DNA of 64,000 nucleotides, from contig NZ_SSXU01000003.1 of assembly GCF_009469605.1 (NCBI RefSeq), positions 62,001 through 126,000 of the forward strand. Direction: 5' to 3'. Positions 1-41,164 of the stretch are shown piece by piece. The notes beneath the pieces are model-generated. The model had not been told where the DNA came from, did not search any database, and worked only from the letters and a program-made list of their open reading frames with translations. Each line of letters opens with the position of its first letter. The first letter of the stretch is position 1. This stretch comes from Zoogloea sp. 1C4 (GTDB lineage: Bacteria > Pseudomonadota > Gammaproteobacteria > Burkholderiales > Rhodocyclaceae). A program made the position numbers and the translations under genes.

Positions 1-1097
1 TAGTGCGGCATGTTGAGCCGCGCCTGCTGGCTGAAGCAGCCGTTGGCATCCCGCAGCCACACGCCACCACCCGGGCTCTCGACCAGATCGGCCAGCGCCT
101 TGACCACCGATTCGCCGAGGCTGAGCCCGTCCCCCGCCACCGACAGGGCCTGGGTCACGCCCAGCCACTCGGTGCGGTAGTCGTACCGGTAGGCGAAGAA
201 ATGCTTGGCGAGGAACACCCGCAGCCGGGCCCGGAAGGCCCCGGAGAAGAACACCACCCCCAGGAACAGCACGCCACCAAACAGCAGCGCCAGCTGCAGC
301 GCCTCGCCCCACTCGCCGCCGAAGTAGCGCATGTAGTAGCCGGCACCGGCAATGATCAGCAGGTACAGGCCCGACCCGGCCAGCGCGGTGGAATGGAACA
401 CCACGTGCCGCGAGACCGAGATCCGGAAGGTCCATTCCGGATTGCGCGACGCCGATACCGCCACCAGCGGCAGCGCCAGGGCGTGGGCAAAGCCGCGTAC
501 CCCCCAGATCACCGGGTGGATGCGGCTGAACAGCAGCATTTCAGAGTACAGGTAGACGTCAAAGGCGAACAGCCCGCCCAGCGCCAGCACCAGCGGCTTG
601 ACGCCCCAGCGGGAGCGCTCGATGACCGCCCGGTAGAAGAGTTCCAGCAGCACCAGGCCGAACACCGCGGTCATCAGCGCCGTGGCGGCCCAGGTGCGCA
701 GCGGCGTGCCGTACAGCGGCACACCCAGGGTGAAGCAGATCACGCCGATCGCCCCGAGGGTGACGATGGCCAGCATGCCCGGCTTGGGCCACGCCGGTAG
801 CCCGGAGTCGGGCCCGTCACCCGACGCCTGGGACAGCATGCTCAGGAGGAAGCCGAACCACGCTGCCATGCGCAGCACGTCCAGCAGATTGGCCAGCTGG
901 AACATCCAGACCCAGCCCGAGGTGGAAAACACCCAGTTCGCCACCGCCCACAGGGCACTGGCCACAACCGCCGCGATCAGCAGGATGCCCTGCCGGCCCC
1001 TGCGCCAGGCCACGCCGAGGTAAAGCGCAAACAGCCCGTGCAGCACCGCAGCAAAGGCGTAGCTCCACGCCGAGACCTGCGAAAGGATTGATTCCAT
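1..1097 (-). CDS. prsK: PrsK-type PEP-CTERM/exosortase histidine kinase, N-terminal part (runs off the left edge)
   Basis: Reverse-strand frame starting MESILSQVSAWSYAFAAVL stays open to the window edge, giving about 365 residues. GAGG stands 5 nt before the ATG. The visible part is a string of hydrophobic helices (roughly 7-8 membrane segments to about residue 290), then a charged start of a cytoplasmic, probably GAF-like, region. This matches the N-terminus of PrsK, the membrane sensor kinase of the exosortase A (PEP-CTERM) system, which pairs with the sigma-54 activator PrsR; the family is around 700 residues, so the kinase half lies outside the window. It follows the PEP-CTERM sugar transferase on the same strand after a terminator-like hairpin. 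The kinase domain itself is not seen, so the name rests on the N-terminal pattern and the neighbour. Confidence 0.75.
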   Translation of the reverse strand, partial: MESILSQVSAWSYAFAAVLHGLFALYLGVAWRRGRQGILLIAAVVASALWAVANWVFSTSGWVWMFQLANLLDVLRMAAWFGFLLSMLSQASGDGPDSGLPAWPKPGMLAIVTLGAIGVICFTLGVPLYGTPLRTWAATALMTAVFGLVLLELFYRAVIERSRWGVKPLVLALGGLFAFDVYLYSEMLLFSRIHPVIWGVRGFAHALALPLVAVSASRNPEWTFRISVSRHVVFHSTALAGSGLYLLIIAGAGYYMRYFGGEWGEALQLALLFGGVLFLGVVFFSGAFRARLRVFLAKHFFAYRYDYRTEWLGVTQALSVAGDGLSLGESVVKALADLVESPGGGVWLRDANGCFSQQARLNMPH

Positions 1098-1115
1098 CGA
1101 GCCTCAATAAAAGCA

Positions 1116-1139
1116 GACGCTCCCGGCAAGGGGAGCGTC
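1116..1139 (-). terminator. Hairpin between the sugar transferase gene and prsK
   Basis: Perfect 9-bp inverted repeat GACGCTCCC (1116-1124) and GGGAGCGTC (1131-1139) with a 6-nt loop. Read on the minus strand it is followed by TGCTTTTATT, a short T-rich tail. It lies just after the stop of the sugar transferase gene and before prsK, so it probably ends or attenuates that transcript. Confidence 0.6.
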
Positions 1140-1185
1140 CTGGGTTCAGACCATCCCCTGCCGGGGAACGCGACGCCTGACTGTT

Positions 1186-2571
1186 TTAGTGTGCACCGTC
1201 TCCGGTCAGCACAACCCGCACCGTCTCGAACAGGACCACGGTATCGAGGAACAGAGTGTGATTCTTGACGTAGTACAGATCGTACTGCAGCTTGTTGATC
1301 GCATCATCCACCGACGAACCGTACTGGTAACGGACCTGGGCCCAGCCGGTCACGCCCGGCTTGACGCAGTGGCGGACGGCGTAGAAGGGAATGTCGCGGG
1401 TGAGCTGATCGACAAAGAAGGGACGCTCCGGACGCGGGCCGACGAGACTCATGTCGCCTTTCAGCACATTGAACAGCTGCGGCAGTTCGTCAATGCGGCA
1501 CTTGCGGATGAAACGGCCGACGCGGGTCACGCGGTCATCGTTGGCGGTCGCCCAGCGGGGCTTGCCATCACGCTCGGCATCCCGGCGCATGCTGCGGAAC
1601 TTGGTCACCTTGAACAGGCGGCCACCCAGGCCGACACGCTCCTGGCGGTAGAACACCGGCGCGCCGTCCTCGATCACGATCAGGAGCGCCGCCAGCACCA
1701 TCACCGGCGCCGCAAGCACCAGCAGCAGCAGCGACACGAAGATGTCGAACACCCGCTTGACCAGCGTGCGGCCCCAGCCCTGACGGAAGCCTTCGCCGTA
1801 GATCAGCCAGCTGGCACGCAGGGAATCGATGCGCACCTGACCACGCACACGCTCGAAGAAGCTGGAGAGGTCGAGCACCTTGATGCCGGCCATCTTGCAG
1901 TCGAGCAGCTCACGCAGCGGAATGGCACCACCGCGACGCTCCTTGACCGCCACGATGATCTCATTGACGCGCAGGTGATTGGCCGCGGCAAGCAGGTTGC
2001 CATCGAAATGGATGACCCGCTTCGGATCGATGCGAATCTCGTCGCCGGCGCCGGCAGGGTAGAAACCCACCACCTGAAGGCTGGAGTTGGCGGGATGGGT
2101 CAGCGCATGCTCGACGGCTGCGGCGTCAGACCCGGTCCCGATCACCATGATACGTTTCACAAAAACCCCTGCACCCGTCCGCCGGGCAGTGAAACCACGG
2201 ACGGCGACCACGAAACCAAGAAGGGCGATCACGTTGAGTTCAAGCGCCTCATGTGCGAACTCGCCCCACGGAAGGACCTGAAATATACCGTAAGCCACAG
2301 GAACGCTCAGCACGATCGACATGCCGACACGCATCAGGGTCTGCCGGAAATCCGAGCCGAAACCCGCCCGATACAGGCCAAGGGCGCCGTTCAGGATCAT
2401 CATGGTCACCGCGAAGGCAAAGGCCGACGGCACCACAGTCGCCACCAGGCCACCATCCACCCGGGCCTGCAGCACGAACACGACAACCACCGCCACAAAG
2501 AGCAACAAGGCGTCAAAGACCAGTCGCTGGATCGTGCTGGACGGAACGTAATGATTGAAGAGTTTGAGCAT
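1186..2571 (-). CDS. PEP-CTERM-associated undecaprenyl-phosphate sugar phosphotransferase (TIGR03013-like)
   Basis: A 461-residue membrane enzyme expected to move a sugar phosphate onto undecaprenyl phosphate, the first step of exopolysaccharide assembly. The N-terminal half has about four to five hydrophobic segments and a CoA-binding-like loop ([13 protein letters not shown]). The C-terminal third is a bacterial sugar transferase domain: [14 protein letters not shown] membrane entry, [30 protein letters not shown] and PGVTGWAQV. The start at [16 protein letters not shown] matches the family N-terminus; a TTG-started extension of 26 residues is less likely. In exosortase-carrying betaproteobacteria this gene sits beside prsK/prsR, as here. 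Product class is firm; the exact sugar is unknown. Confidence 0.88.
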
Positions 2572-3037
2572 TCTGAGCACCGGCCGCCCTTGAAGGACAG
2601 CCTCCCATGCAAATTTGATCAAGCCGAGTGGCGGACAACTCAACCACAAGCCCCTACGAAAACCGCTTTTCCGAGCGGCCAGGAACGGCTACCGGACATG
2701 CCAGGCACGCGACGCATACTTGCAAAATGCGTGAAAATTCGTGCAGTCGAACGATAGCGCTTAAGTACCCTGCCTCCTGTGATGCCCGTCACAAGGGGGA
2801 TGACTTCGCCGACCCGACGTTCTACCACAACAAAATATCACCATCGAGACACCCGCCCGATTTACGGTCGGAAACACATCCAAAATGAACCGGCCGGCAA
2901 CGGCAGACAAGGCAGCGTCCCGCGCTTCCTCGCCCGACGACCCGGACCGGTTTCTGGCCGACGTTAAAGCCTGTCAGCACCAATTATTATAACGTCGTAA
3001 TGCCCGCTTTAGGTACTCTGCCAGTTGTCTAAAATTG
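2572..3037. other. Long intergenic region between kup and the sugar transferase gene
   Basis: 466 bp without a convincing gene. It should carry the promoter of the sugar transferase gene. A perfect TATAAT -10 hexamer on the minus strand (2986-2991) lacks a good -35 partner. A TTTCACG-N4-TTGCA string on the minus strand (2721-2736) resembles a sigma-54 site but lacks the essential GG at -24. No clear terminator follows kup. The segment is more AT-rich than the flanking genes, as expected for a regulatory leader. Confidence 0.5.
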
Positions 3038-4936
3038 TCAAAGCTCGACCTGCGTACCGAACTCGACCACCCGGTTGGGCGGGATGCTGAAGAAGTCGGC
3101 GGCGCTGTGGGCGTTCCGGAACATCAGGATGAACAGCCGGTCCCGCCACAGGGTGAGCGGCGAGGTCTTGCGCGGAATCAGCGTCTCCCGTCCAAGAAAG
3201 AACGAGGACTCCATCAGCTCGAAGGGCAAGCCCTGATCGGCGCACATCGCCAGCGCCGCCGGAATGTCCGGGTCGTCCTTGAAGCCGTAGCGCACGAACA
3301 CCCGATAGAAGCCGAAATCGAGCTCCTCCACCCGCACCCGCTCGCACACAGGCACGCACGGGATGTCCTCGGTCACCACATTCACCAGCACCACCCGGGC
3401 GTGCAGCACCTTGTTGTGGAGCAGATTGTGGAGGAGCGCCCGGGGCACGCCGTCCGGCGCAGTGGTCATGAACACGCCGGTGCCTGGCACGCGCAACGGG
3501 ATATCGTGGAACATCGACTGGATGAACAGGGCCAGCGGCATGGTGTCCTGGCGCATCCGTTCAGCCAGCGCCTCGCGGCCGCGCTTCCAGGTCATCAGCA
3601 GCCCGTGCACGCCCAGGCCCATCGCCAGCGGAAACCACCCACCGTCGAAGATCTTCACGCTGTTGGCGCTGAAGAACGCAAAGTCGACGATGAAGAACAG
3701 GATCAGGAAGCTCACCGACGCCAGCCAGCCCCAGCGCCACAGGGCCCGCACCACCACGAAGGCGAGCAGGGTGTCGATCATCATCGTGAGCGTCACCGCG
3801 ATGCCGTAGGCCGACGCCAGCGCGCTCGACGAATGGAAGCTGATCACCAGCGCCACCACCGCCCCCAGCAGCATCCAGTTCACGTTGGGCACGTAGATCT
3901 GGCCAATCTCCCGCTCGGAGGTGTGGATCACGTGCATCCGCGGGGAGTAGCCCAGCTGGATCGCCTGCTTGGTGAGGGAGAAGGCGCCGGAGATCACCGC
4001 CTGGGACGCGATGATCGTCGCCAGCGTGGCGAGGCCCACCATCGGCAGGATCAGCGCGTCGGGCACCAGATTGTAGAAGGGGTTCTTGACCGCAGTCGGG
4101 TCGTCGAGGATCAGCGCGCCCTGCCCCAGGTAATTGAGATACAGCGCCGGAAACACATAGCCGAACCACGCCACCTTGATAGGCCGGCGCCCGAAGTGGC
4201 CCATGTCGGCATACAGCGCCTCGCCGCCGGTGATCGCCAGCACCACCGCCCCCAGCGCCAGAAAACCGTGCCACTGGTTGTTGGCGAAGAAATCCATCGC
4301 ATAGACCGGATTGATCGCCCGCAGCACGTCCGGGTGGCGGGTGATGTTGACCGCCCCGAGCACCCCGAGGGTGGTGAACCAGAACAGCATCACCGGCCCG
4401 AAAACCGCCCCGACCTTGGCCGTGCCCTTGCGCTGGATCACGAACAGCCCGGTGAGCACCGCCAGGGAGATCGGCAGCACGTAGGGCCGGAAGGCCGGCG
4501 TGGCCACTTCAAGGCCCTCGACCGCGGAGAGCACCGAGATGGCCGGCGTGATCACCCCGTCGCCATAGAACAGCGCCGCCCCGAACAAGCCCAGTGCCGC
4601 CATGCCCGCCCCGAGCCGGGGCGAGTTGTTGGTGCGCAGGGCCAGCGAGGTGAGCGCCATGATGCCGCCCTCGCCCCGGTTGTCGGCCCGCATGATGAAC
4701 ACCACGTACTTGAGCGACACCACGATGGTCAGCGCCCAGAAGACCAGCGACAGGATCCCGATCACGTTGTCCGGCGTCACCGGCACCGCGTGGGGGCCGT
4801 TGAAGACCTCCTTCATTGTGTACAGGGGGCTCGTGCCGATGTCCCCGAATACAACACCCATCGCCGCCAGCGCAACGGGCAACACCCGCTCCGGCTTGGC
4901 GTGGGTGTTTTGTCCTTCAGCAAGCACCGTGGACAT
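3038..4936 (-). CDS. kup: Low-affinity potassium transporter Kup
   Basis: A 632-residue proton-coupled K+ uptake permease of the inner membrane (KUP/HAK/KT family). The N-terminus carries the signature GVVFGDIGTSPLYTMKE, followed by about 12 hydrophobic segments to roughly residue 450 and a soluble C-terminal domain of about 170 residues ending at GTQVEL. Length agrees with E. coli Kup (622). The ATG at 4936 has a textbook GGAGG 5 nt upstream; the further upstream in-frame ATG at 4972 has no such site. It diverges from the GGDEF-EAL gene across 239 bp. No potassium-responsive regulatory element was recognised. Confidence 0.95.
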   Translation of the reverse strand: MSTVLAEGQNTHAKPERVLPVALAAMGVVFGDIGTSPLYTMKEVFNGPHAVPVTPDNVIGILSLVFWALTIVVSLKYVVFIMRADNRGEGGIMALTSLALRTNNSPRLGAGMAALGLFGAALFYGDGVITPAISVLSAVEGLEVATPAFRPYVLPISLAVLTGLFVIQRKGTAKVGAVFGPVMLFWFTTLGVLGAVNITRHPDVLRAINPVYAMDFFANNQWHGFLALGAVVLAITGGEALYADMGHFGRRPIKVAWFGYVFPALYLNYLGQGALILDDPTAVKNPFYNLVPDALILPMVGLATLATIIASQAVISGAFSLTKQAIQLGYSPRMHVIHTSEREIGQIYVPNVNWMLLGAVVALVISFHSSSALASAYGIAVTLTMMIDTLLAFVVVRALWRWGWLASVSFLILFFIVDFAFFSANSVKIFDGGWFPLAMGLGVHGLLMTWKRGREALAERMRQDTMPLALFIQSMFHDIPLRVPGTGVFMTTAPDGVPRALLHNLLHNKVLHARVVLVNVVTEDIPCVPVCERVRVEELDFGFYRVFVRYGFKDDPDIPAALAMCADQGLPFELMESSFFLGRETLIPRKTSPLTLWRDRLFILMFRNAHSAADFFSIPPNRVVEFGTQVEL

Positions 4937-34158: not shown

Positions 34159-34959
34159 ATGACCAAGAAGGCACTGTGCATCGGCATCAATGATTATCCC
34201 GGCACCCAGAACGACCTCAACGGCTGCGTCAACGACGCCAACGACTGGGCCGCGGCGCTTGCTGCCCGTGGCTTCGCCGTCACCAAGCTGCTCGACGCCC
34301 AGGCTACCAAGGCGGCCATGGTGAGCGCGATGAGCGGCCTCATCTCCGGCGCCGCCAAGGGCGACACCGTGGTCATCACCTATTCCGGCCACGGCACCTG
34401 GGTGCCCGACCAGAACGGCGACGAACCCGACGGCCGCGACGAAGCCCTGTGCCCGTGGGACATCGGCTCGGGCAAGGTGCTGCTCGACGACGAGATCGCG
34501 GTGATCTTCACCAACCACGCGCCCGGCGTGCGGGTGCTGCTGATCTCCGACAGCTGCCACTCGGGCAGCGTCACCCGCGGCGACGACAGCGACCTCGACC
34601 CCGGCATGCCCCGCGCCCGCTTCCTGCCGCCTGGCGTATGGATGAAACCCGACGCCCTGGCCCCCGCCGCCAAGGCCCTCACCCTGCCCACCCTCAGCGG
34701 CCTGTCGCGCAGCGGTGGCGACCTGCTGATGGCCGGCGCCAAGGACAGCCAGTTCAGCTGGGACACCAGCTTCAAGGGCCGCCCCAACGGCGCCTTCACC
34801 TATTACGCCCTCAAGGCCCTCGCGGCGCTGCCGGCCAACGCCAGCTACGCCGACTGGTTCAAGGCCATCACCCCCACCTACCTGCCCACCAACCAGCTGC
34901 CGCAGGATCCGCAGCTCTTTGGCAGCCGCACCGCCAAGGCCTGGAAGGTCTTTTCCTGA
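34159..34959 (+). CDS. Metacaspase-like caspase family protease
   Basis: 266 residues, a single caspase (C14, type I metacaspase-like) domain. N-terminal strand KKALCIGINDYPGTQNDLNGC is the usual opening, the catalytic histidine is H78 in ITYSGHGTWV and the cysteine is C133 in LISDSCHSGSV, with the acidic pocket-forming motif DGRDEALCPWD between. No signal peptide, so cytoplasmic. GGAAGGAG stands 7 nt before the ATG. The next gene, 85 bp on, encodes a CHAT-domain protein, another caspase-fold protease, which suggests a proteolytic cascade. Prokaryotic caspases are known effectors or triggers in programmed cell death and phage defence; the role here is inference. Confidence 0.92.
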   Translation: MTKKALCIGINDYPGTQNDLNGCVNDANDWAAALAARGFAVTKLLDAQATKAAMVSAMSGLISGAAKGDTVVITYSGHGTWVPDQNGDEPDGRDEALCPWDIGSGKVLLDDEIAVIFTNHAPGVRVLLISDSCHSGSVTRGDDSDLDPGMPRARFLPPGVWMKPDALAPAAKALTLPTLSGLSRSGGDLLMAGAKDSQFSWDTSFKGRPNGAFTYYALKALAALPANASYADWFKAITPTYLPTNQLPQDPQLFGSRTAKAWKVFS

Positions 34960-34988
34960 GCCCAGCCTCACGTAACCCCCACCCAACC

Positions 34989-35014
34989 CCGGCCCGCCGT
35001 TCGCGGGCCGGTTT
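34989..35014 (+). terminator. GC-rich hairpin with short T-run between caspase and CHAT genes
   Basis: Perfect 9-bp stem CCGGCCCGC (34989-34997) / GCGGGCCGG (35003-35011), loop CGTTC, followed by TTT. The T-run is short, so it may end only part of the transcripts and lower expression of the large downstream gene relative to the caspase. Confidence 0.5.
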
Positions 35015-35044
35015 GCCAATCGGCCCCCGATCTGGAGTCCCGTT

Positions 35045-38000
35045 GTGAATACCCCGGCCCTGCCCACCCTGCGCCTCGTTGCCGCCCCCGAAACCGACGC
35101 CAGCCACAAGCCGGCACGCCTCGCAGCCCTTGCCCAGGCGGGCAGCCGGGGCGACAGCGGCGACCTCCTCGACCCGCTGCTGTCCACGGTGATCGTGGCG
35201 GAGAGCTGGGAGATCGGCCCCCGCTCCCGGGGCGACGACAGCCGCCAGGTGGACGTACCGCCCGACACCCGCCTGCTGGCCCTCGAGGCCGACGACGGCA
35301 CCACGGTCTTCATCCGCGCCGACACGCTGGCCGAACGCCTCGCCAACCTGGCCGTCACCCGCCCCGAACTGCGCGGCGACGACAACACCCTCGACCTCAC
35401 CGCCCTGCGTCCCCGGGACGCCCGGAGCCGGGGCATCGGCGAATGGGTGTGGCGCCGGCTCTCCGCCCTCGTCGTACAAGAGGACGCGATCACCAAGGCC
35501 GCCCACGCCAGGCTCGCGGATCTCACCGGCACGGTGGTCGAAGACCTCGTCGTCGCCGGTGGCACCTATGCCGGGGCCAAGGCCATCGTGTGGGCCATCG
35601 AAGTTCGCGGCCGCAAGGCCCCGGGCCTCTATACCTGGGACGGCGGCGCCATCGACGCAGAAACCCCGCTGGCGGACAAGGCACCAGCCGTCCTGGCGCT
35701 CACGGCGCACCCCGGCCTGATCTTCATCCACGGCACCGGCTCCCACACCCTGGGCGGCTTCGGACAGCTACCCGGCAGCCAGAGCTGGCAGAAGCTGGTG
35801 GGCCAGTTTGAGGGTGGCCTGTTCGGGTTCGAACACCACACCTTCTCCGAGAGCCCCATCGACAACGCCCTGGCCCTGGCCCGGGTGCTACCGGTCAATG
35901 CAAAGTTCAGCATCGTCACCCACTCCCGCGGCGGGCTCGTCGGTGATCTGCTGTGCATCGACGCCAGCCCCGACAACGCCGACACCCTCAACGCCCTGAT
36001 CCGCGACTACCGCCCGGCGCCCCGCCAGGACGACAGCCTCGACCCCACGGCCAAGGCCGATCTGGAGCGCTTCATTGAGCAGGAGCAGGCCAAGCTCGGC
36101 GAACTCATCCAGCTGCTGCGCACCAAGCGCTTCCAGATCGGCCGCTACGTGCGCGTCGCCTGCCCGGCCCGGGGCACGGCGCTGCTCACCGACAATCTGG
36201 AAGTCTTTCTCTCCGGCCTCCTCAACCTCATCCGCAAGGCGGGTGGCTGGGCGGCCGGCGCTGCCATCGGCGCGGCCTCCGGCCCCATCGCCGGGGCCAA
36301 GGCGAAGGCCGCCACCGACAAGGGCGTCGCGGTGCTCACCCGCATCGTCATCGAGATCGCCAACCGGCGCCTCGACCCGCGGCTCCTGCCCGGCATCGAA
36401 GCCATGCTCCCCGACGCCGCCATGGGCATGCTGCTGGCGTCCGTCCCCCATCGCCCCGACACCCGCATGGCCATCATCGCCGGCGACATCGAGGGCGGCG
36501 GCCTCGCCAAGCGCCTCGGCACGATGTTCACCGACTGGATGTTCTTCGATAAAGCCAACAACGACCTGGTGGTGGACACCGCCTCGATGTACGGCGGCCT
36601 GGCCTACCAGGCGCAGGCCCGGGCGATCTTCGTCCAGGGCGAGAACGTCAATCACTTCCGCTACTTCCGCGACGACACCGCCACCGCCGACGGCCGCCCG
36701 CTGCCTTCCGCCGTGCACCGCTGGCTGACTGCCGACCAACCCACCGAATTGCCCGAATGGGCCACCCGCGCCCAGCCGGAAATCGATCGCGACGACCGGG
36801 TGGCGCCCCCGGCGGCCCCAAAATCCCGCGGCGACACCCGTGCGCCCATCCTCGTCTTCCTGCCCGGCATCATGGGCAGCAACCTCGACGCCGACGGCAA
36901 CCGCGTCTGGCTCGATCCCCTTGGCCTTGCCCGCGGCGCCCTCAGCCGCATCGCCATCGACAGCAAGGCCAGGGTGGCCGAAGCCGGGCTGGTGGGCATG
37001 GCCTACGGCAAGCTCGTCAAACAGCTCGGCAAGACCCATCAGATCGAACTCTTCGACTACGACTGGCGCCAGCCCATCGCCAAGCTCGGCGAGCAACTGG
37101 CCGGCCGGCTGAGCGATCTCCTCGACAAGCACCCCGACACCCCGGTACGCATCCTCGCCCACAGCATGGGCGGCCTGGTGGTGCGTGCCGCCATCGCCCA
37201 CAAGCCGGCCCTGTGGGACGCCATCATCGCGCGGCCCGAGGGCCGGCTGGTGATGCTCGGCACTCCCCACCACGGCTCGCACCTGTTCGTCGACACGCTG
37301 CTCGGCCAGTCCGACACCATCCGCCTGCTGGCGCGGATGGACTTCCGCCACAAGATGCAGCAGATCCTCGACATCGTCGCGGGTTTTCCCGGCGCAGTGC
37401 ATCTGCTGCCAGCCCCGGGCTTCCTCGACACCGGCAACACCGCCGTGCGCGACTACTACCGCCCGGAAACCTGGGAAGCCCTCGCTGCCAACAACAACGA
37501 TTTCTGGTTTGGTCGCACGCTGGGCGGCAGGCCTTCGGCCAAGGTGCTCACTCAGGCCGCCGATTTCTGGAACGCCGTCGCCGACACCAGCTGGGTGGCC
37601 AAGGCCCCCGAGCGGATCGCCTACGTCTTCGGCCAGAGCGACAACACCCCCTGCGGGATCGTCGAGCAGCAGGGCGGCGGCAGCATCGTGCTGCGCGGCA
37701 CGCCCGAGGGTGACGGCTCGGTCACCTGGGCCTCGGGCCACCTGCCGGGCCTGCCCAACGACCGCAAGTGGCTCATGCCCGTCGACCACATGGGGCTCAC
37801 CAGCACCGAAGCCTATTTCGACGAGATCGAGACCCTCCTCGAGCGGGGCGCCCCGCGCAAGCTCGGCCCCCTGCCGGTGAGCCGCGGGGGCGACGCCGCC
37901 GTGGTGCGGGAATACCGGGCCGGACCGCCCGCGGGCTTCCCGTCCCAACCCGAAGCCACCGCCCGCCTGCTGGGCGGCCGCCTGCGCCCGGTGGCGCCGC

Positions 38001-41000
38001 GCAGCCGCAACCGCAGCCTGAAGGTCTCGGTCACCGCGATGGACCTGCGTTTCGTGCATATCCCGGTGCTCTGCGGCCACTACCGGGGCGACCCGATCGC
38101 CGCCGCCGAAGGGGTGATCGACCGCTACCTCGTCCGTGGCGCCCTCAGCCAGCGCCAGCGCCTGGGCATCCACACCGGCGAGATCGGCAACGCCTCCATC
38201 GTGCTGATGCCCCGCAACCTGGCCGAGCGCCAGCGCCACACCGGCCGCGGCGCGGTGGTGGTGGGCCTGGGCGAGATGGGCAAGCTCACCGCCGACGGCG
38301 TCAGCGAAGCCGTGCGCGGCGGCGTGCTGCGCTACCTCCTCCACGCCGCCGACCGCTACGGCGAGGAGCAGGCCGGCAGCACCACCGACAGCCCCGACGG
38401 CGACACCCTCCACCTCAAGCTCGCCTCGCTGCTCATCGGCACCAATTCGGCCCTGCAGCTCGACGTGGCCGAATCGGTGAAGGCCGTGGCGCTGGGCGTG
38501 CTGATGGCCAACCGGGATTTCGCCACCGGCGAAGGCGGTTCGGCCCAGAACACCAACGCCCGCCGCGCGCTGGTGTCCGAGCTGCAGTTCATCGAGGTCT
38601 TCCACGACAGCGCGATCTCCGCCGCCCACGCGGTAAGCCAGCTGGGCTCGACCCTCGCGAGCGAGCTCAAGCAGATGAACTTCCAGCTCGAAACCGCCGA
38701 CGAGCTGTTCATCGGCGAAGGCGTGCGCCAGCGCCTCAGCGTGTCGCCCTTCTCGGATTACTGGCCGCGCCTCGTGGTGTGCGACGCCGACCGCGAGGAC
38801 ACCGATTTTCCGGCCGACGCCACCACGCCGCGCTTCCAGCCCCCCATCCCGCCCGAAAACCTGCGCCAGCTGCTGCGCATCTACGGCTGCGCCGACAAGG
38901 TGAGCGACGGCAGCCTGCCGACGCCCTTCTGGCTCGAAAGCGCCCCGACGATCCGCTACGCCAGCCGGCTCAAGTTCATCTACATGGGCGACAAGGCCCG
39001 CGCCGAGAGCATCGTCCAGATCCGCCAGCCGGGCCTCGTCGAAAAGCTCTGCGACGACCGCCTGAAGAGCCGCAACCCCACCCTCTACGCCAAGGATTCC
39101 GGCTTCGGCACCACCCTGTTCCAGCTCCTGGTGCCGCGGGATTTCAAGGCCGCCGCCCGCCAGGCCAACAACCTGCTGCTGATGGTGGATGAGACCACCG
39201 CCAACCTGCCCTGGGAAATGCTCGAGGTGGACGGCCGGCCGATGGTGCTGCACACCCGCGTGGTGCGCCAGTTCATGACCAGCCGCTTCCGCCGCCAGGT
39301 GGTGCGCACCGACAGCCTCTCCGCCTGCGTGATCGCCGAGCCCTCCACCGAGGGCTTCCACGCCCAGTTTGGCGGCCCCGGCTGGAAGCCCCGCATCGGC
39401 GCCGACGGCCAGCCCGAGTCCGACTGCCTCGACGCCCTGCCCGGCGCCGCGGCCGAAGGCAGCACCGTCACGCGGGTGCTCTCCGAGGTCGGCTACGAAG
39501 TGACCTTCGTCCCGCCCGACGCCCAGGCCGCCGACGTCTTCACCCGCCTCTACGCCCGGCCCTACCGCCTGCTGATGGTCTCGGCCCACGGCATCCACGG
39601 CAAGCGGGCGGCGGACGGCACCTGCCGCAGCGGCGTGGTGCTCTCCAACGGCCTGCTCCTCACCGCCGCCGAGATCGGCCAGATGGAAAACGTGCCGGAT
39701 CTCGTCTTCCTCAACTGCTGCCACCTGGGCAAGATCGGCACCGGCAGCAGCCGGCTCGCCGCCAGCCTCGCCCGGGAGCTCATCGACATGGGCGTGCGCT
39801 GCGTGGTGGCCGCCGGCTGGGAGGTGCACGACGGCGCGGCCCGCACCTTCATCGAAACCTTCTTCGAGCAGATGGCCCAGCGCAACGCCAGCTTCGGCGA
39901 GGCCATCACCGTGGCCCGCGCGACCACCTTCGAAGCCTTCCCCGACCACAACACCTGGGGCGCCTATCAGGCCTATGGCGACCCGGCCTTCCAGCTCAAG
40001 GTACGGCGCAACCCGGCCAGCGACGATGCCCCCATGCGCGCGCCCAACGAGCTCATCGACTGGATCGAGCAGCGGCGCATCGAATCCCGCCTGCCCGACG
40101 CCAGCCAGATGCTCCAGTCCGCCGGCAAGGACAGCGGCTTCAAGCAGATCGCCCAGCGCATCAAGACCCGCCTGCGCCATGTGCCCGAGCGCTGGATCAA
40201 CCTGCCGGAGGTGCAGCAATCCCTCGCCCGCCTCCATGCCGAGTTCGGTCGCGATGGCTTCGACGAGGCCCGCAAGGCCTGGTTGCGGGCCATCAGCGAC
40301 GATTCATCCCGCGGCCTCGTGCCCCTCTCGGCCATCGAACAACTCGCCAACCTGGAGGCCCGGCAAGCCGAACGCCTCAGCGCCGATCCCGCAAACCTGG
40401 ACGCCGCCCAGGCACTGGCCGACAGCGCCCTGACCCGGCTGCGCTTCCTCATCGCCCTTTCAACCGAACGCCCGGACGCCACAGCTGCCGGCAGCGCAAG
40501 CGGCAACCCCGAACGGCTGGCGATCCTCGGCAGCGCGCTCAAACGCAAGGCCATCGTCCTCGTCCGCAGTGGCAAGCCCTGGAAGGAAGCGGTCGCGCCG
40601 CTGCTGGCCGAAGCCCGTGATGCTTACGCCCACTGCGAGGGCAGCCCTGACGGATCTCCCGACTGGAACCCCTACAACTATCTCAACCGACTGCAACTGG
40701 ACGCCCTGCTCGACACCCGGACCGACTACGAGACCGCATCCCGGGCCTGCCAGGGCGCCGCTCACGCGCGCTTCGAACGCACCTTCGACTTCTTCGATGC
40801 CGTCATGTCGGCCGATGCCCAGCTTGCCTGCTGGCTGCACACGGAGGAAGGCACAGCCGATACGCTGGCGGCCCTCTATCGCGACGCGATGAAGGACGTC
40901 ACCGTCACGCCCCGGGAGCTCGAGTCCGTCACCGCCCAGATCCGCATCCTCGGCGCGCTGCTCAGGTGCCGCGGCACTCCGGGCGACGCCGATCGCGCCC

Positions 41001-41164
41001 AACAGCTCGAAACGCTGATCAACATCCTCCACAGCCCCAATCGAGCCGCCGCAGCCCCTGCCACCTCACGATCCGTCGCAGCGCCGACGGCCGCAAAGTC
41101 CAGATCGAAGAAAGCAGCAGCCGGCACGCCCAAAGCTGGTGCAGGCAAGAAGAAGGAAAACTGA
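35045..41164 (+). CDS. Giant dual alpha/beta-hydrolase and CHAT protease protein
   Basis: 2039 residues. Region 1 (about 200-560): alpha/beta-hydrolase with LIFIHGTGSH and nucleophile elbow THSRGG (S294), and a Gly/Ala-rich segment near 405-425. Region 2 (about 598-850): LCAT-like lipase/acyltransferase with FLPGIMGSNLDADGNRVW, elbow AHSMGG (S707) and GTPHHGS. Region 3 (about 995-1310) is of unknown fold. Region 4 (about 1340-1660): CHAT peptidase with H1515 in MVSAHGIHG, C1559 in FLNCCHLGKIG, and AGWEVHDGAA. The last ~380 residues are helical, possibly tetratricopeptide-like, with a Lys/Ala tail. GTG start with GGAG 8 nt upstream. No signal peptide. Paired with the caspase upstream. Likely a protease-controlled esterase or lipase effector, or one that is cleaved by the caspase; this is inference. 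Confidence 0.88.
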   Translation: MNTPALPTLRLVAAPETDASHKPARLAALAQAGSRGDSGDLLDPLLSTVIVAESWEIGPRSRGDDSRQVDVPPDTRLLALEADDGTTVFIRADTLAERLANLAVTRPELRGDDNTLDLTALRPRDARSRGIGEWVWRRLSALVVQEDAITKAAHARLADLTGTVVEDLVVAGGTYAGAKAIVWAIEVRGRKAPGLYTWDGGAIDAETPLADKAPAVLALTAHPGLIFIHGTGSHTLGGFGQLPGSQSWQKLVGQFEGGLFGFEHHTFSESPIDNALALARVLPVNAKFSIVTHSRGGLVGDLLCIDASPDNADTLNALIRDYRPAPRQDDSLDPTAKADLERFIEQEQAKLGELIQLLRTKRFQIGRYVRVACPARGTALLTDNLEVFLSGLLNLIRKAGGWAAGAAIGAASGPIAGAKAKAATDKGVAVLTRIVIEIANRRLDPRLLPGIEAMLPDAAMGMLLASVPHRPDTRMAIIAGDIEGGGLAKRLGTMFTDWMFFDKANNDLVVDTASMYGGLAYQAQARAIFVQGENVNHFRYFRDDTATADGRPLPSAVHRWLTADQPTELPEWATRAQPEIDRDDRVAPPAAPKSRGDTRAPILVFLPGIMGSNLDADGNRVWLDPLGLARGALSRIAIDSKARVAEAGLVGMAYGKLVKQLGKTHQIELFDYDWRQPIAKLGEQLAGRLSDLLDKHPDTPVRILAHSMGGLVVRAAIAHKPALWDAIIARPEGRLVMLGTPHHGSHLFVDTLLGQSDTIRLLARMDFRHKMQQILDIVAGFPGAVHLLPAPGFLDTGNTAVRDYYRPETWEALAANNNDFWFGRTLGGRPSAKVLTQAADFWNAVADTSWVAKAPERIAYVFGQSDNTPCGIVEQQGGGSIVLRGTPEGDGSVTWASGHLPGLPNDRKWLMPVDHMGLTSTEAYFDEIETLLERGAPRKLGPLPVSRGGDAAVVREYRAGPPAGFPSQPEATARLLGGRLRPVAPRSRNRSLKVSVTAMDLRFVHIPVLCGHYRGDPIAAAEGVIDRYLVRGALSQRQRLGIHTGEIGNASIVLMPRNLAERQRHTGRGAVVVGLGEMGKLTADGVSEAVRGGVLRYLLHAADRYGEEQAGSTTDSPDGDTLHLKLASLLIGTNSALQLDVAESVKAVALGVLMANRDFATGEGGSAQNTNARRALVSELQFIEVFHDSAISAAHAVSQLGSTLASELKQMNFQLETADELFIGEGVRQRLSVSPFSDYWPRLVVCDADREDTDFPADATTPRFQPPIPPENLRQLLRIYGCADKVSDGSLPTPFWLESAPTIRYASRLKFIYMGDKARAESIVQIRQPGLVEKLCDDRLKSRNPTLYAKDSGFGTTLFQLLVPRDFKAAARQANNLLLMVDETTANLPWEMLEVDGRPMVLHTRVVRQFMTSRFRRQVVRTDSLSACVIAEPSTEGFHAQFGGPGWKPRIGADGQPESDCLDALPGAAAEGSTVTRVLSEVGYEVTFVPPDAQAADVFTRLYARPYRLLMVSAHGIHGKRAADGTCRSGVVLSNGLLLTAAEIGQMENVPDLVFLNCCHLGKIGTGSSRLAASLARELIDMGVRCVVAAGWEVHDGAARTFIETFFEQMAQRNASFGEAITVARATTFEAFPDHNTWGAYQAYGDPAFQLKVRRNPASDDAPMRAPNELIDWIEQRRIESRLPDASQMLQSAGKDSGFKQIAQRIKTRLRHVPERWINLPEVQQSLARLHAEFGRDGFDEARKAWLRAISDDSSRGLVPLSAIEQLANLEARQAERLSADPANLDAAQALADSALTRLRFLIALSTERPDATAAGSASGNPERLAILGSALKRKAIVLVRSGKPWKEAVAPLLAEARDAYAHCEGSPDGSPDWNPYNYLNRLQLDALLDTRTDYETASRACQGAAHARFERTFDFFDAVMSADAQLACWLHTEEGTADTLAALYRDAMKDVTVTPRELESVTAQIRILGALLRCRGTPGDADRAQQLETLINILHSPNRAAAAPATSRSVAAPTAAKSRSKKAAAGTPKAGAGKKKEN

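Follow-up and report, generated by a model that had tools for sequence, protein, structure and literature searches.

What does a caspase-like protease do when it is encoded directly ahead of a giant protein that carries a protease of its own together with two lipase-like hydrolases? The arrangement is found in Zoogloea sp. 1C4, in a stretch of 64,000 nucleotides (G000:C75:62001-126000, part of a 5.0 Mb genome; hereafter the window), where a metacaspase gene is followed after 85 bases, on the same strand, by the gene for a protein of 2039 residues, hereafter the giant. A sequence-only reading of this DNA had described a metacaspase with intact H78 and C133 and a codirectional CHAT/double-hydrolase protein, and both Pfam profiles and the conservation of the catalytic residues bear that description out. 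The answer proposed here is that the pair serves a bacterial cell-suicide (conflict) system as its effector unit, in which the giant would be a dormant polyprotein whose lipases are released by proteolysis, CHAT being the putative cutter and the caspase both a target and an amplifier; taken whole, this scheme has at best just short of an even chance of being correct, and its parts differ in strength. The two genes almost certainly form one functional unit, and what is new is the presence of near-invariant single arginines in the linkers around the hydrolases.

The domains of the giant and the other features of the locus are collected in Table 1. Both hydrolases resemble phospholipases and lipases, as had been suggested from the sequence; the second has the fold and the Ser-Asp-His triad of an LCAT/PLA2-like lipase, with phospholipases as its nearest folds, and is termed no more than LCAT-like because its score against the Pfam LCAT profile (15.8 bits) falls below the cut-off of 21. 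The nearest fold to the CHAT domain is SAVED-CHAT, and Foldseek matches the TPR region to the TPR domains of LGN and kinesin light chain. Pfam finds no nuclease domain in the giant and, up to an E value of 1, no SAVED domain; in NCBIfam the giant is without a match and the caspase has one below the cut-off, and comparison with the PADLOC system proteins brings up nothing beyond a caspase model of a generic kind and, across the CHAT region, a weak match to BovA. An alignment of 57 giants was built from that of the window and 56 of the 82 distinct giants longer than 1300 aa (sequences under 1760 aa were dropped, as were L122, L123 and L132), and it comprises group A (28 sequences, >38% identity) and group B (29). 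D507, H537, D890, H915, H1515 and C1559 are kept in 57/57 of these sequences, and the hydrolase serines nearly so (S294 in 56/57, S707 in 54/57). There is about an even chance that the hydrolases, once freed, would damage membranes. That hydrolase 2 instead acts like the type VI effector Tle4, as part of a toxin delivered to neighbouring bacteria, is highly improbable: the protease and TPR parts suit an internal system, and neither a secretion marker nor an immunity gene was seen next to the pair, although no dedicated search was made.

Table 1. Features of the caspase and giant genes, with positions counted from the first letter of the window.
Feature	Position	Strand	Evidence
Metacaspase, 266 aa	34159..34959	+	Peptidase_C14 1.6e-22, 80.8 bits vs cut-off 21.4
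Caspase catalytic H78	34390..34392	+	44/44 in clade alignment
Caspase catalytic C133	34555..34557	+	44/44 in clade alignment
TRGDD shortly past catalytic Cys, residues 139-143, candidate processing site	34573..34587	+	Clade alignment
Giant hydrolase-hydrolase-macro-CHAT-TPR protein, 2039 aa, GTG start	35045..41164	+	
R35 linker arginine	35147..35149	+	Arg in 28/28 group A, 1/29 group B; 2 residues ahead of pLDDT<50 segment
R62 linker arginine	35228..35230	+	Arg in 55/57; inside pLDDT<50 segment
Hydrolase 1 (DUF7379 α/β-hydrolase), S294/D507/H537, residues 225-541	35717..36667	+	DUF7379 3.4e-29
R595 linker arginine	36827..36829	+	Arg in 54/57; inside pLDDT<50 segment
Hydrolase 2, PLA2/LCAT-like, S707/D890/H915, residues 598-942	36836..37870	+	PGAP1 1.4e-5
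R947 linker arginine	37883..37885	+	Arg in 56/57; inside pLDDT<50 segment
Macro-fold domain, residues 989-1211	38009..38677	+	
CHAT protease, H1515 + C1559, residues 1355-1646	39107..39982	+	Pfam CHAT 1.2e-25, 91 bits vs 24
TPR-S region, residues 1739-1885	40259..40699	+	Pfam 5.6e-7

How such a protein might be switched on is suggested by its linkers. Four arginines, R35, R62, R595 and R947, flank the two hydrolases within linkers that are otherwise variable, and they lie in or beside segments of low confidence (predicted local distance difference test score, pLDDT, below 50), of which the model of the giant has 12. Twenty rounds of shuffling each linker's residues and realigning them failed to reproduce the arginine columns, clearly so for R62 (best arginine column 1.00, shuffle maximum 0.32) and R595 (0.91 vs 0.44), the values for the R947 linker being 0.93 and 0.82; among outlier columns across the 57 giants R62 ranks second and R595 third. 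The context of the arginines is distinctive as well, with the reservation that the counts come from related sequences and are not independent tests: an arginine between two small residues is found at 92/112 sites as opposed to 408/4936 other arginines in group A, and at 46/82 sites as opposed to 473/4767 others in group B, while an acidic second residue after the arginine is found at 45/112 sites and 53/4936 others in group A. The earlier proposal that a protease frees a lipase thus gains near-invariant linker arginines around both hydrolases, whereas the cleavage itself is something we infer; cutting at the linkers is reasonably probable. A strict SRGD/TRGD motif as a caspase-dependent code was considered and dropped: most giants do not have it, the arginines are kept where the caspase is missing, and group B lacks the acidic residue at P2'.

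Which protease would do the cutting is a separate matter. The closest solved chain to the caspase by sequence is GSU0716 (3bij, 2.9e-33), with metacaspases next, and shortly past its catalytic cysteine stands a loop that resembles the giant's linkers, in which (n = 44) R/K is conserved in 44/44, T/S in 42/44, G in 39/44 and D in 30/44. This TRGD loop may be a processing site, as its sequence suggests, but because a basic residue is also found in the post-cysteine loop of more distant caspases, its resemblance to the linkers is weak evidence. Metacaspases favour Arg or Lys at P1, and it might accordingly be supposed that the order is reversed, the caspase initiating and cutting the giant at its arginine linkers with CHAT as a downstream protease. 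Such an order would suit the fact that no caspase occurs without a giant in 199 genomes of the family, as well as the better conservation of the caspase (in L008, for example, 85% as opposed to 63% for the giant). It is nonetheless unlikely, as the linker arginines are retained in giants without an adjacent caspase (L017, L018, L114 and most of group B), and for the same reason CHAT is the likelier cutter of the two. Two further caspase genes deserve mention. The genome of the window has a second Peptidase_C14 gene (G000:C59:46872-47540; L003, L167), and at L103 (reoriented locus, 1001-3958) a caspase of 40% identity, with TRGDD, adjoins an oppositely oriented gene of 985 residues, the beginning of which resembles DUF4062 by eye.

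Caspase and giant recur together as a pair. With caspases called at E<1e-80, a caspase is present in 32 of the 199 family genomes and a giant in 51, and every one of the 32 caspase genomes also has a giant (Fisher 4.9e-24, kinship ignored; by genus, 14/14 vs 22/68, 2.6e-9); by hand count a giant is found in 11/56 genomes whose caspase matches are all more distant. In these family genomes 24/33 caspases lie directly upstream of a giant, the reverse of rare adjacency, and for two of the others (G020 and G187) non-adjacency is less certain owing to short caspase contigs; several genome matches were read through one stop codon. A search for giant loci gave 14, of which 12 have the caspase directly upstream, the exceptions being a Moraxellaceae and a Chromatiales metagenome-assembled genome (MAG); one pair lies in a Desulfobacterales MAG (L014). 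In a class sample of 274 genomes the caspase is present only in the genome of the window and the giant in 5 (E<=1e-60), four of them without a caspase. Among named sequences the giant's closest relatives come from Zoogloea, and among 23 genomes of that genus there are 19 with the caspase, 13 with a type-A giant (split or partial matches in G006, G007, G011 and G016 being counted as type A) and 10 with a type-B giant, which has ~35% identity to that of the window. The types tend toward mutual exclusion (p 0.003): 6/19 caspase genomes are without type A, and 6/6 of these have type B elsewhere. In two Zoogloea genomes (G001, G009) a giant is present and a caspase match absent. Conversely, L068 and L069 have kept the caspase between ybiB and a nitrate-assimilation gene, the flanking genes of the window's pair, with the giant missing and a TRGN loop. 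Among the orphan Zoogloea caspases (L068, L069 and L070) the loop has drifted to TRGN or TRGA. In one Zoogloea MAG (L009 8001-14064) the giant is broken over three frames, through assembly error or decay.

Clues to a defence setting come from relatives of the pair. In three related genomes (g67; L011/L073, L074 and L094) the order of genes is DUF4062-iSTAND, MoxR-like AAA, vWA, TIR-CHAT (or a longer CHAT), caspase and giant, and two of the three operons have an added TIR gene; the full Pfam run was on L074 only, with MoxR assigned by context and AAA_5 in L074, and vWA being VWA_CoxE. The genome of the window has the complete DUF4062-iSTAND/MoxR-like/vWA/TIR-CHAT core, found by tblastn with the L074 proteins, on another contig (L163 4311-11163; G000:C86) and unlinked to the pair, and the same core is present in three other Zoogloea genomes (L164-L166), which were examined for their CHAT match. 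The iSTAND protein occurs in 5/199 family genomes (at 1e-15) from three genera, and 5/5 have both caspase and giant (chance ~8e-5). Other partners were surveyed around those 50 of the 93 distinct giants whose flanks reach at least 2 kb, 43 being omitted for short flanks; as the queries were drawn from the counted loci, the counts are descriptive. The caspase is beside 28 of these giants, an M15 peptidase beside 8 (7/8 in caspase loci), GH46 beside 2, an amidase beside 1 and TIR beside 7, so that cell-wall hydrolases adjoin 11/50, and two genes with no Pfam match recur, one of 383 residues read as lysozyme-like (3/50) and one of ~200 residues read as SLOG-like (7/50). All of the listed partner matches are on the strand of the giant. 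The link with TIR is a weak one, as some of these genomes are rich in TIR genes (65 matches across 31 genomes); M15_3 is less frequent, its 9 matches in the 31 genomes including the 2 adjacent to giants. The ~200-residue family, possibly nucleotide-binding, was seen at L017, L080, L086, L101, L109, L147 and L148, beside giants or caspases.

These pieces can be assembled into a sequence of events, each of which is conditional. Trouble in the cell would trigger CHAT, in some genomes by way of the DUF4062-iSTAND/MoxR/vWA/TIR-CHAT set or a TIR gene, the route possibly being an NAD-derived ligand sensed by the macro-fold domain, or else the TPR region. CHAT would then cleave after the conserved linker arginines, yielding the DUF7379 hydrolase (~63-595) and the phospholipase-like hydrolase (~596-947), and would also cleave the caspase at its TRGD loop, after which the caspase may amplify the cascade; the released lipases would attack the cell's own membranes. 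According to the accessible text of a 2026 preprint, DUF4062 is a TIR-like NADase that releases ADP-ribose (PMC13174449), which suggests, no more, that this ADP-ribose could be the ligand of the macro-fold domain. The fully specified version, in which a NAD-consuming DUF4062/TIR sensor makes an ADP-ribose-type signal for the macro-fold domain, CHAT self-cuts the four arginine linkers, frees two lipases and activates the caspase, and lysis follows with cell-wall hydrolases helping in some lineages, is speculative and rather unlikely to be right in every step.

Several observations weigh against this scheme, beginning with the linkers themselves. If any residue rather than arginine is considered, the best column is no better than in the shuffles for the second and third linkers; R947 ranks only 17th overall in the outlier list and falls outside the top 25 in group A; and other isolated residues (L561, which ranks first, P578 and W810) stand as high in that list. 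Group B is without the acidic P2' signal (2/82 sites, 88/4767 others), and its site 595 is often preceded by W. The hydrolases themselves are not uniformly intact, Gly replacing S707 in 3/57 giants (L125, L013 and L080) and in L125 S294 also. The linker arginines could be structural, and one may picture a conflict effector in which they dock the hydrolases to another domain, so that the hydrolases work in the intact giant while CHAT and the caspase cut other cell proteins. The further conserved residues in or near the linkers (L561, P578) fit such docking, whereas the small-R-small context in both groups and the position of the sites in low-confidence loops of the model do not, and docking without polyprotein cutting is on balance rather improbable.

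The setting of the pair in the window adds to these reservations. It lies between ybiB and the nitrate-assimilation gene, which starts 81 bases beyond the giant, and this place is constant in the six Zoogloea loci with both flanks (L005-L010), a stable locus unlike many defence loci; on that ground a mobile defence island in the window is ruled out. The iSTAND, MoxR and vWA genes are not beside the pair in the window, and no TIR or cell-wall hydrolase gene, nor the 383- or 200-residue partner, adjoins it there or at the other surveyed Zoogloea loci. Nor is the core a constant companion elsewhere, as 27/32 caspase genomes are without an iSTAND match at 1e-15, and an obligatory tie between the two was ruled out on that count. 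A scan of the locus for promoters and terminators was uninformative, yielding a single promoter-like site, located on the minus strand, and a single terminator-like one where 3.4 were expected. The sequence-only reading had proposed a defence module, one that a place always beside a single housekeeping pathway would contradict. That place is indeed fixed inside Zoogloea, but in the other genera fetched the pair has other neighbours, and the defence setting is borne by the three operons with the conflict-system core rather than by the window. The constant place and the lipase-like folds would also be expected of a housekeeping enzyme of lipids or storage granules, its turnover under protease control, beside nitrate-assimilation genes. 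Such a role is quite improbable in view of the changing neighbours, the patchy presence (51/199 family genomes, 5/274 in the class sample), the operon with iSTAND, MoxR-like, vWA and TIR-CHAT genes and the plasmid-borne copies of the giant. Of those copies, an Azotobacter plasmid giant (L089) lies near type I restriction genes, and the Paracoccus plasmid giants (L088 6550-9834, L090 4609-7884) are each preceded by a 1090-residue gene, the two 48% alike, with an SBP_bac_3 match in L088.

How far does the cell-suicide unit proposed here resemble systems already described? In type III CRISPR, SAVED-CHAT cuts a caspase-like partner. In the text available, SAVED-CHAT is said to act via 'a cascade of proteolytic activity' (PMC11229360); the giant differs from SAVED-CHAT as presented there and in PMC11417357 in having a macro-fold domain and TPRs instead of SAVED, and no CRISPR genes were noticed near the pair. 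Kaur et al. 2020 (PMC7159879, section 20) predicted the iSTAND-MoxR-vWA ternary systems, whose effectors include caspase-like and TIR domains, and also state, in the part consulted, that in the sister VMAP systems an α/β-hydrolase gene always adjoins the caspase. The three g67 operons, with the core ahead of caspase and giant, are like these ternary systems, whereas the pair of the window stands alone with the core on a separate contig, and the consulted text makes no mention of a double-hydrolase CHAT giant or of linker cutting. The canu caspase-nuclease antiphage systems (PMC12799240) are similar, as far as the available portion of that paper goes, in pairing a caspase gene with an adjacent effector that is proposed to stay inactive before cleavage, but that effector is an MBL-type nuclease, and here the partner is the giant, which combines two lipases with a CHAT protease of its own, instead of an MBL-type pro-nuclease. 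Type IV Thoeris, from what could be seen of PMC12847820, likewise combines a TIR gene with a caspase-like protease, as do the TIR-flanked giants; the window pair is without an adjacent TIR, and its effector would be a lipase polyprotein. Related ideas are already in print, in the consulted parts of PMC7159879 (caspase with α/β-hydrolase in ternary systems) and PMC12799240 (canu). The suggestion that no named system has this makeup agrees with a literature search that found no description of the pair, within a reach that left out most subscription papers and all supplements. Searched with tblastn against 50,697 phage records, the giant had no match. A role in phage defence is possible, its chance being close to, and yet below, even.

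Protease-unleashed effectors in bacterial conflict systems are a fast-growing theme, and the effectors described for such systems, in the sources as far as they were available, are nucleases, NADases, membrane proteins and general protein cutting. A giant with its own protease and two lipases, whose cut sites are visible from conservation, would make the question of what metacaspases act upon directly testable, with candidate sites that can be named, four in one substrate, the giant, and one in the caspase itself. If the scheme is true, the predicted iSTAND ternary systems, whose killing step is undefined in the text consulted, would gain a membrane-attacking effector in floc-forming bacteria.
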